A model generated the notes under the pieces. The model ran no database searches. It was not told where the DNA came from and saw only the letters and a program-made list of their open reading frames with translations. This document shows positions 34,072-37,440 of a stretch of DNA of 64,000 bases, piece after piece; positions within the stretch are counted from its first letter, which is position 1; every line of letters begins with the position of its first letter. The stretch is taken from NCBI GenBank assembly GCA_002712005.1, contig PASP01000001.1, forward strand, positions 68,961 to 132,960, in the 5' to 3' direction. The DNA comes from Halobacteriovoraceae bacterium (lineage in GTDB: Bacteria > Bdellovibrionota > Bacteriovoracia > Bacteriovoracales > Bacteriovoracaceae). The translations under genes were made by a program, and so were the position numbers.

Positions 34072-34959
34072 ATGTTTAAAAACTTCACCGAACACTCTTT
34101 CCTTACCTCAGAGAATCTAAAAATCCACTACGGTAAGAATTTTGATACCTTGAATCCAAAGCATCCTATTATTGTTTTTAATTATGGACTTGTCTGTAAC
34201 GTAGCTCACTGGGAAAAACAGATTCCCTACTACGACCAACAGGGCTATCAAATTATATACCATGACTATCGTTTTCATTTTAACAGCGACAGAACAAGTA
34301 ATATTGATGACCTCTCATTTGAAAATATCTCAAAAGATATGAAAGAACTCCTCGACCATCTTGGAGTTCAAACAGCATTTCACTTTGGGCACAGTATGGG
34401 GGTTAACACAACGCTAGAGTATGCTTACCGCTACCCTGAAGATGTTTCAGGAATCGTTCTTATTTCAGGCACAGTTTTACCACCCCAAGATATCTTATTT
34501 GATACCAACTTCATGGACCTTCTACAGCCCATTTTAGAGCTTCTTTTAAAAAAGTACCCTAAGCTCTATTCAAGTATTTGGAAGACAGGACACAAAAACC
34601 CTCTGGCCACACATCTTGTGCACCAAGGTGGTTTCAATACAAAAATGGTTCCTAAAGACTTTGTAGAACATTACCTAAAAAAAATCGGAGAGCTTGAACC
34701 AGAGGTCTTTTTTCAACTTTTAAAAGAAATGAAAGGCCATGATATCGTTACCAAACTAGAAATGATCTCTGTTCCAACTCTCATTATGGGCGGCGATAAA
34801 GATCAGGTTATTCCGAACTTCCTTCAGTATATATTGAGTGAAAATATTCCAAATTCTAAACTCTATATAATTAAAGAAGGAAGTCACGTTCCTCAAGTTG
34901 ATTTTTTCGAAACCGTTAATGAACGCATCGATTTATTTTTACTTAAAAATCAAAAATAA
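34072..34959 (+). CDS. Alpha/beta hydrolase
   Basis: A 295-residue cytoplasmic alpha/beta-fold hydrolase. The nucleophile elbow is GHSMG (about residue 106), the acid is in GGDKDQVIP and the His in EGSHVPQVD. The oxyanion region (NYGLVCNVAHWEKQIPYY) resembles esterase and haloperoxidase-type members. The substrate is unknown. It is one base upstream of the UDG-like gene, so the two are transcribed together. Confidence 0.85.
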   Translation: MFKNFTEHSFLTSENLKIHYGKNFDTLNPKHPIIVFNYGLVCNVAHWEKQIPYYDQQGYQIIYHDYRFHFNSDRTSNIDDLSFENISKDMKELLDHLGVQTAFHFGHSMGVNTTLEYAYRYPEDVSGIVLISGTVLPPQDILFDTNFMDLLQPILELLLKKYPKLYSSIWKTGHKNPLATHLVHQGGFNTKMVPKDFVEHYLKKIGELEPEVFFQLLKEMKGHDIVTKLEMISVPTLIMGGDKDQVIPNFLQYILSENIPNSKLYIIKEGSHVPQVDFFETVNERIDLFLLKNQK

Positions 34960-34960
34960 T

Positions 34961-35542
34961 ATGATTATTCAAAGAGATGAAATTCCATCATTCATTCCTA
35001 AAAAACCTAAAATGATTTTTTTGGGAACGATGTGTGCCATCAATGCTCGAACGATTAATGGAAAAACCCCTGAGATGGACTTCTTTTATTATAATGATAA
35101 CAGAAATCACTTTTGGAAAATCCTTCAATACCTCTTTGAGCCTGATCTTGAGCCCAGTCGACTAACTATTGACCAAAAGAAGAAATTCTTATTAAAACAT
35201 AATATTGGAATCCAGAATTTAGTCTCAGAAATTCAAATTCCAAATCATGAGAAGTTAGATCCATCAGATACTGTTCTTTTTGATTGTCTGAAGAAGGGTC
35301 GAATTACGTTTAAAACAATCCCACAACATGATTTAAAAGTATTTCAAAAGACACCTTTATATTTTACTTGTCGCTATAAAAAAGGAATTCACCAGTTACT
35401 CGAATCCTTTCTGCTACAAAATAATTTGAAATATGATTTAATAGAGAAGACTTGGTACTTGAAAACACCGACACGCTGTAATCCCTATAAACGTAGCCAA
35501 GAGTGGCTAGAAGAAATGAATCAACACATTAAGAATTTCTAG
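34961..35542 (+). CDS. Uracil-DNA-glycosylase-superfamily protein
   Basis: A 193-residue protein resembling the UDG superfamily (family of MUG, TDG and hypoxanthine-DNA glycosylases). Supporting pattern: FLGTMCAINAR (motif 1 position), FFYYNDNRNHFWKIL, and KHNIGIQNLV near the second helix; LKTPTRCNPYKRSQEW sits where the C-terminal SP-type motif is expected. Motif residues differ from characterised members, so specificity or activity is uncertain. I start at ATG 34961, one base after the hydrolase stop. Its last 14 bases overlap the convergent gene. Confidence 0.6.
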   Translation: MIIQRDEIPSFIPKKPKMIFLGTMCAINARTINGKTPEMDFFYYNDNRNHFWKILQYLFEPDLEPSRLTIDQKKKFLLKHNIGIQNLVSEIQIPNHEKLDPSDTVLFDCLKKGRITFKTIPQHDLKVFQKTPLYFTCRYKKGIHQLLESFLLQNNLKYDLIEKTWYLKTPTRCNPYKRSQEWLEEMNQHIKNF

Positions 35543-36782
35543 ATTCTCTGTACTCTAATAAAGGACCAAATACTCTTTTCATGGCGGCAAGCACTTGATT
35601 TTTCTTATACTCTAGATGTGATGCTTCCCCTTCAGAATTAATTCGATGAGCATGTTCATCTACAATTTGGACTTCATAAGGGTAAAAGAAGCGAACATCA
35701 CGAGCGATAAGGGAATAATCCATGGCCAAAATTTTCTTAGAAAGTTCATTATCCTTTTGTTCTTTTGCAGTATTTCTCACATTGATAAACTCTTGCATAA
35801 AAGGATTTTTATACTTAATCAATTGGCGACAGGTAAATTGAATCGCCTGATAGGCAGAAAGGCTATGAGAGTTCTTATCTCTAACAGAGCTAGGATTAGA
35901 AAATGAGCTTTCCATAATTTCCCGCTCTACTGCTTCTAAAAACTTTTCCTCGGTAAGATCATTTCGTAAAGCAAACTTTAATAAATTTGTATGCCTCTCT
36001 TTGAAAGCCTTTATATCAAATAAAGAGTTTGTTGAACGGCTAGGCTTAATATTATGAGGAATTACGATATAGTTCTCTACTAAAAATTTAATTACTCTAA
36101 GAGTATCAAATCTACTTTTAGTAATGATTCTTACCCCAACCCTATCAAAGAGTTCCTCTGCAACATTTTCAGCTTTATGAAGGAGCTTAATAATAACGGA
36201 GTCTCTTGTCTTTTTCGATTTTGTCTCAAAATCAACAAGCTCTATTCTCGAGCTTTCATCTTGAGTGAGTTTATTAGCAAAATAGAGATTTTCCTCTTCT
36301 CTATGAAGATACTTATAAAACTTATCAAAAATTTGTTTTTGGACTTCAGAGAAATAGCTCGATCTTAAATCTTTATCCACATGAAGAATCGTATGCATAA
36401 CCTTAAGTACAATCTCTGCCCAAAAGGTTTCTTCTCGAGACATATTATCTTTATTTCCGGTGGCCATAAGAAAGAGTTCACTAATGTCTGTGATCATCAC
36501 AATCGAATTAGGAACCTTTAAATCAAGTCCATCAGGATTACCTTCTTTTAAAAAATAACGCCTAATGAATTGGATAGCTTCTTGAAAATTCCCAAAGAGT
36601 TCAGCACGTGCAACAGGATCATTCGCATCTAAACCATAACCAGAAAGGAACCTCTCTACAGTTTCAATATCCGTCATCGGTCCAATGAAGAATTTGGAGT
36701 CAAGAGCAGAACGTCCCCCTATGACAACATCCATTGATTCCCAGTCGAATAAAAAATTTGATAAGTATTTAGGTCTTTCCAT
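35529..36782 (-). CDS. TIGR04552-like protein with RelA/SpoT-type synthetase features
   Basis: A 417-residue cytoplasmic protein. The central part resembles a (p)ppGpp synthetase fold: a basic helix (DSVIIKLLHKAENVAEELF) leads to FDRVGVRIIT (about residue 214), where RelA has its metal-binding Asp. Then NYIVIPHNIKPS and SLSAYQAIQFTCR recall the RelA DYI..PK and GYQSLHT motifs. PYEVQIVDEHAHRINSEGEASH (split here from the following Lys-rich part) recalls EVQIRT..MH..AE.G.AAH. About 70 residues are inserted between the two halves. I recall the TIGR04552 family as largely restricted to delta-proteobacterial lineages. Product and activity are unknown; the homology is from motif pattern only. Confidence 0.7.
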   Translation of the reverse strand: MERPKYLSNFLFDWESMDVVIGGRSALDSKFFIGPMTDIETVERFLSGYGLDANDPVARAELFGNFQEAIQFIRRYFLKEGNPDGLDLKVPNSIVMITDISELFLMATGNKDNMSREETFWAEIVLKVMHTILHVDKDLRSSYFSEVQKQIFDKFYKYLHREEENLYFANKLTQDESSRIELVDFETKSKKTRDSVIIKLLHKAENVAEELFDRVGVRIITKSRFDTLRVIKFLVENYIVIPHNIKPSRSTNSLFDIKAFKERHTNLLKFALRNDLTEEKFLEAVEREIMESSFSNPSSVRDKNSHSLSAYQAIQFTCRQLIKYKNPFMQEFINVRNTAKEQKDNELSKKILAMDYSLIARDVRFFYPYEVQIVDEHAHRINSEGEASHLEYKKNQVLAAMKRVFGPLLEYRESRNS

Positions 36783-36945: not shown

Positions 36946-37440
36946 ATGAAAGATAAAAACACACCGAGTCTAACGCACCCAGAAATACTATTCCTCTCAT
37001 TCTTTGGCGTAGGTTTTCTTCCCAAGGCTCCCGGCACATGGGGATCATTGGCCATTGTACCCGTACTTTATGTTCTCGGTATTTTTAAAGCTCCCTTCTT
37101 TCTTTTCATCCCCTTTCTCTTAGTAGCAACTACCATTACCTGCTTTATTGCGGAGTATACTCAGAAGAAGAACAATATTCATGACCCTTCTTGGATTGTT
37201 ATGGATGAGGTTCTTGGTATGTGGACAGCATGGCTTTTCACCCACCCCAATCAGGTCAGCTTTTACAGCATGGCCCTTATTTTTGGATTATTTCGCTTCT
37301 TTGATATTATTAAGTTTTGGCCAGCTTCTTACTTTGACAAATTAGAACATGGAGCTGGAACTATTTTAGATGATATTGTCAGTGGTATTTTTGCGGGGAT
37401 TACCTTTTTAGTGATTACTCACTTTGTAGCAATCCCCTAG
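36946..37440 (+). CDS. pgpA: Phosphatidylglycerophosphatase A
   Basis: A 164-residue inner-membrane enzyme that dephosphorylates phosphatidylglycerophosphate to phosphatidylglycerol. The PgpA signature GVGFLPKAPGTWGSLAI, DPSWIVMDEVLGMW and the terminal AGTILDDIVSGIFAG are all present, with four hydrophobic segments. It ends three bases before the stop of the convergent secreted protein gene. Confidence 0.93.
   Translation: MKDKNTPSLTHPEILFLSFFGVGFLPKAPGTWGSLAIVPVLYVLGIFKAPFFLFIPFLLVATTITCFIAEYTQKKNNIHDPSWIVMDEVLGMWTAWLFTHPNQVSFYSMALIFGLFRFFDIIKFWPASYFDKLEHGAGTILDDIVSGIFAGITFLVITHFVAIP

Follow-up and report, generated by a model that had tools for sequence, protein, structure and literature searches.

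A divergent, probably active branch of the RelA/SpoT superfamily in the Bdellovibrionota

Does the open reading frame (ORF) at positions 35529-36782 of the window, the whole 64,000-nucleotide stretch of Halobacteriovoraceae DNA analysed here, encode an enzyme of the RelA/SpoT superfamily, and if so, which molecule could it modify? The initial annotation had read a (p)ppGpp synthetase-like core from four motifs in the encoded protein. We found the complete ORF, 417 amino acids on the minus strand, at exactly this place, with FDRVGVRIIT, IVIPHNIKPS, SAYQAIQF and EVQIVDEHAH...GEASH all present in the order claimed.

A catalogued family related to RelA/SpoT proteins

The protein belongs over its full length to both TIGR04562 and TIGR04552 of NCBIfam, with 443.9 and 422 bits, respectively, far above the curated cut-offs of 140 and 125 bits, and shares the N-terminal start MERPxYLSxY with its relatives, the closest named one found being from Bacteriovorax sp. 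BSW11_IV (62% identity). Both models bear the same label, "TIGR04552 family protein", and neither has an assigned function. The family had been proposed as undescribed, which is correct for its function; as a set of sequences, however, it is covered by the two NCBIfam models, and many members are flagged by Pfam as RelA_SpoT. TIGR04562/TIGR04552 thus forms a distinct branch of the RelA/SpoT superfamily that is already catalogued but carries no functional assignment. In the literature searched, which covered a minor part of subscription journals, the name TIGR04552 was found once, in a mutation table from the evolution of Bdellovibrio sp. NC01 (PMC9888234), and no joint mention of a small alarmone synthetase and Bdellovibrio was found.

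Pfam RelA_SpoT matched the ORF at 27.7 bits with hmmscan (E = 3.6e-6; gathering score 27), and TIGR00691 (spoT_relA) matched it with an E-value of 7.6e-5. Because the same Pfam model reached 21.4 bits in a six-frame search of the whole genome, which is under the cut-off, the Pfam support for this ORF alone is marginal. The family as a whole gave stronger signals. RelA_SpoT was matched by 21 of 34 diverse members at an E-value threshold of 0.01, the best E-value being 1.1e-8. Comparison by hhalign of the family with alignments of the synthetase domain from RelA/SpoT homologues (RSH) of its own phylum resulted in scores of 35-47 and E-values from 2.7e-4 to 5.5e-6, the latter obtained in one direction, against scores of 12-23 for 19 unrelated families used as the null. 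A family HMM was also run on a set of 27 RSH, 27 shuffled RSH and some 350 proteins encoded nearby; apart from family members, its 21 best-scoring hits were all RSH proteins. Several weak matches of the family profile in genomes without the family turned out to be the canonical RSH gene, with both halves recovered in two genomes. Among PDB entries, YwaC, RelSeq and two further Rel/RelA proteins led the family-profile search, weakly (E = 0.014-0.08). A single-sequence phmmer search of PDB with the ORF returned only unrelated weak matches to MRG proteins (E = 0.15), which we rejected.

The profile comparisons place the RelA/SpoT likeness of the ORF above chance. AlphaFold models from a two-sequence input (the window protein and one relative) had pLDDT values of 44.2 and 43.6 for the full protein and residues 176-417, too low for a fold to be read from them. 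A coincidental likeness of motifs on an unrelated fold would be in keeping with PDB profile E-values of only about 0.01. Since independent profile methods all point to RelA/SpoT with clean controls, we consider such a coincidence hardly credible.

A preserved donor half and a rebuilt acceptor half

Conservation was counted over 61 homologues, down to 26% identity, with the numbering anchored on S195, the equivalent of S84 in RelP and S247 in RelSeq. The donor (ATP) motif K188-x2-K191-x3-S195-x3-K199-x3-K203 (36174..36221, minus strand) has K191 (S-4), K199 (S+4) and K203 in all homologues, K188 in 60 and S195 in 54. The metal-Asp motif D213-x2-G216-x-R218 (36129..36146, minus strand) is invariant, including R218 at D+5. 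In the second catalytic motif, E370-V-Q372-I...G385...H389-x2-Y392-K393 (35604..35675, minus strand), E370, Q372, H389 and Y392 are each found in 61 of 61 sequences, G385 in 60 and K393 in 54, and the offsets past the Glu (+15 for G, +19 for H, +22 for Y and +23 for K) are identical to those in the RSH protein of the same genome. This residue set is retained even in the homologues with 26% identity. The equivalent residues of the RelP donor site serve to bind the phosphates of ATP, to stack its adenine and to hold the metal (PMC5794853), and synthesis by RelSeq requires D264 and E323 (PMC13299517). The initial annotation had raised the loss of the metal Asp and the EVQI Glu in homologues as an argument against a synthetase; D213 and E370 are present in every sequence. 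Together with the Pfam RelA_SpoT and hhalign results, the conserved residues argue for its synthetase-like reading.

The residues and distances on the acceptor side differ from those of RSH proteins. The G-loop Tyr comes 98 residues after the metal Asp (83-99 across the family), compared with 44 in the RSH protein of the same genome, and the EVQI Glu 59 residues after this Tyr (25-68), compared with 16. A single insertion of roughly 70 residues had been proposed earlier; instead, there are two relative to this RSH protein, a family-wide one of +54 between Asp and Tyr and a second one of +43 between Tyr and Glu, which shrinks to about +11 in several of the remoter homologues. The first, a family-specific insertion on the acceptor side, is placed at residues 253-303 (35874..36026, minus strand) and is followed by a remnant of the acceptor loop (G-loop), N304...Y311 (35850..35873, minus strand). 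N304 is invariant, and residue 311 is Tyr in 57 and Phe in four of the 61 sequences; FaRel2 is impaired by a Tyr-to-Phe replacement at the matching position (PMC11782079). The position of the GYQSIH His (Y+4) is occupied by Gln in 45 and Lys in 16 homologues and never by His, and that of the EIQIRT Arg (E+4) is Arg in none of the 61, the next residue being almost always Asp, whereas both residues are invariant in 27 RSH proteins of the phylum. Of the adenine-stacking Arg pair of canonical synthetases, the Arg at D+5 is kept and the one at S-6, which is R78 in RelP and stacks on adenine (PMC5794853), is lost: 59 of the 61 sequences carry Ser, Pro, Asp, Glu, Ala, Lys or Tyr at S-6 (the other two are not listed), with Ser189 in the window protein. 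K188 at S-7 possibly stands in for this Arg. The kept and lost residues, together with the altered distances, indicate that the donor half has been preserved and the acceptor half rebuilt.

Could the protein still be an ordinary small (p)ppGpp synthetase, making ppGpp or pppGpp from GDP or GTP and ATP despite its changed acceptor loop? The donor site, most of the C-terminal EIQI...G...AH.xYK block at RSH spacing, the Tyr311 retained in most members and the weak top PDB profile match to the small synthetase YwaC are all compatible with this activity. However, the GYQSIH His and the EIQIRT Arg are missing from all 61 family members, a large insertion precedes the G-loop Tyr, and the genome already has a canonical RSH, which makes this activity rather unlikely, if worth keeping in view. 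The lost adenine-stacking Arg and G-loop residues could also suggest a regulator that binds nucleotides without catalysis, having retained the fold but not the reaction. We consider such a regulator quite improbable because the two carboxylates for the metal and the lysines that bind phosphate are invariant, which is unexpected for a pseudoenzyme.

A vertically inherited core gene with its own N-terminal domain

Of 241 genomes sampled from the phylum, 211 gave matches to TIGR04562/TIGR04552 over the cut-off, nearly always in single copy. Coverage outside the phylum consisted of 14 control genomes, none of which gave a match, and one misfiled contig. Some well-assembled genomes of the phylum truly lack the family, which therefore counts as core without occurring in every genome. 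A canonical RSH was found in 54 of 59 sampled genomes, including all 45 of good quality, and the source genome of the window also carries a full-length canonical RSH gene. In 12 genomes, the distances within the family track those of RSH (Spearman 0.67; 1 of 5000 permutations was as high), as expected under vertical inheritance. As judged from these sequences, the gene is a vertically inherited core gene beside a normal RelA/SpoT gene. No homologue was found in viral contigs and plasmids. One record named "Microcystis phage MaAM05" (L064; MW495066.1, 115540-132622) has a homologue accompanied by glyS, secD/secF-like and gatD genes, because of which it looks like a bacterial contig misfiled as a phage genome.

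In the window, the ORF is a lone reverse-strand gene. The ORF at 34898-35542 is convergent with it, the 3' ends overlapping by 14 bases; the divergent neighbour at 36946 reads as a phosphatidylglycerophosphatase-A-like ORF, and recA (38344) lies nearby. The flanking genes of 164 and 295 amino acids keep their place and orientation in all five other same-family loci compared (L001 and L094-L097). Across families, the loci compared shared no neighbour cluster, including any antitoxin-like adjacent gene or operon partner, and the local neighbours vary (acyltransferase, RNA pseudouridine synthase, radical-SAM methylthiotransferase-like). In two loci (L100:9099-10328 and L102:9010-10212), the homologue is directly followed by two co-directional ORFs of about 390 and 640-650 amino acids; the 394-residue one downstream of the homologue in L100 had no Pfam match.

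The N-terminal domain, residues 1-179 (36246..36782, minus strand), is family-specific and acidic, with a median pI of 4.98 and with Y49, G50, P91, L126 and H130 invariant in the 61 homologues. Pfam detected no HD domain in the ORF, and a degenerate HD domain was rejected since residues 1-184 had no hhalign match to the HD regions of RSH from the same phylum. An extra N-terminal domain and membership in a superfamily with known tRNA-targeting members (PMC11559606) might suggest a toxSAS-like enzyme, a toxin or regulator that pyrophosphorylates the 3' end of tRNA. This function is very unlikely for a vertical core gene, nearly always in single copy, which has no PADLOC match and no antitoxin-like gene recurring beside it in different families, and whose N-terminal domain, with a pI of about 5, contrasts with the basic patch used by FaRel2 (PMC11559606).

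The probable reaction and its relation to known systems

We lean toward the explanation that this ORF encodes a divergent and probably active ATP-dependent pyrophosphokinase of the RelA/SpoT superfamily with a single-copy housekeeping role, and that its acceptor nucleotide is maybe not GDP or GTP. ATP would bind via K191, S195, K199 and R218, while D213 and E370 would hold a metal ion that helps to transfer the β-γ pyrophosphate from ATP to a hydroxyl group of the acceptor, with E370 as the likely base. We infer these roles by carrying them over from RelSeq, RelP and FaRel2. The insertion and the loss of the G-loop His and the EIQIRT Arg suggest a nucleotide possibly other than GDP or GTP as the acceptor, and a small nucleotide is suggested because the acidic N-terminal domain and the lack of an antitoxin partner disfavour a tRNA-modifying toxin. 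As the ATP-handling half is kept and the acceptor half rebuilt, the family probably represents a second enzyme for pyrophosphate transfer in addition to the normal alarmone synthetase, and it would act as a housekeeping enzyme next to the canonical bifunctional RelA/SpoT rather than as a mobile toxin. The lost S-6 Arg, the Phe at position 311 in four homologues and the low pLDDT from two sequences weigh against this explanation.

The family has K-x3-S-x3-K, D-x4-R and E-x-Q...G...H-x2-YK in common with the long RSH (Rel, RelA and SpoT, including RelSeq). Unlike them, it has no detected HD hydrolase and no TGS/ACT region, has no conserved S-6 Arg, G-loop His or Arg/Thr past EIQI, and carries two insertions and its own N-terminal domain. 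Like the small alarmone synthetases RelP and RelQ (YwaC/YjbM), it combines a synthetase domain without a hydrolase with the donor-site Lys, Ser, Asp and Glu; unlike them, it adds an N-terminal domain of ~180 residues and the acceptor insertion, has lost the equivalent of R78 and belongs to the core genome of a phylum. With the toxSAS enzymes FaRel2, CapRel and PhRel it shares the superfamily and the donor-site pattern, whereas the missing antitoxin neighbour, vertical inheritance and acidic N-terminal domain set it apart.

If the enzyme is active, the phylum to which the predatory Bdellovibrio-like bacteria belong would have a core second pyrophosphate-transferring enzyme next to its normal alarmone enzyme. 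Nucleotide signalling in predators could then be approached through this enzyme, which would also show how widely acceptor specificity of the superfamily has spread outside toxins. We put forward only tentatively the more far-reaching idea that this phylum-wide housekeeping pyrophosphokinase, forming a branch apart within the superfamily and having an N-terminal domain and an acceptor pocket of its own, might make a nucleotide signal distinct from (p)ppGpp in Bdellovibrio-type bacteria.

Other RelA/SpoT proteins were also observed among the loci. A 453-residue RelA_SpoT-domain protein (L116:749-2110, minus strand) has a signal-peptide-like N terminus and is possibly exported, and two 345-residue RelA/SpoT proteins (L114:543-1580, minus strand; L115:655-1692, plus strand) strongly match the PADLOC candidate defence model PDC-S33.
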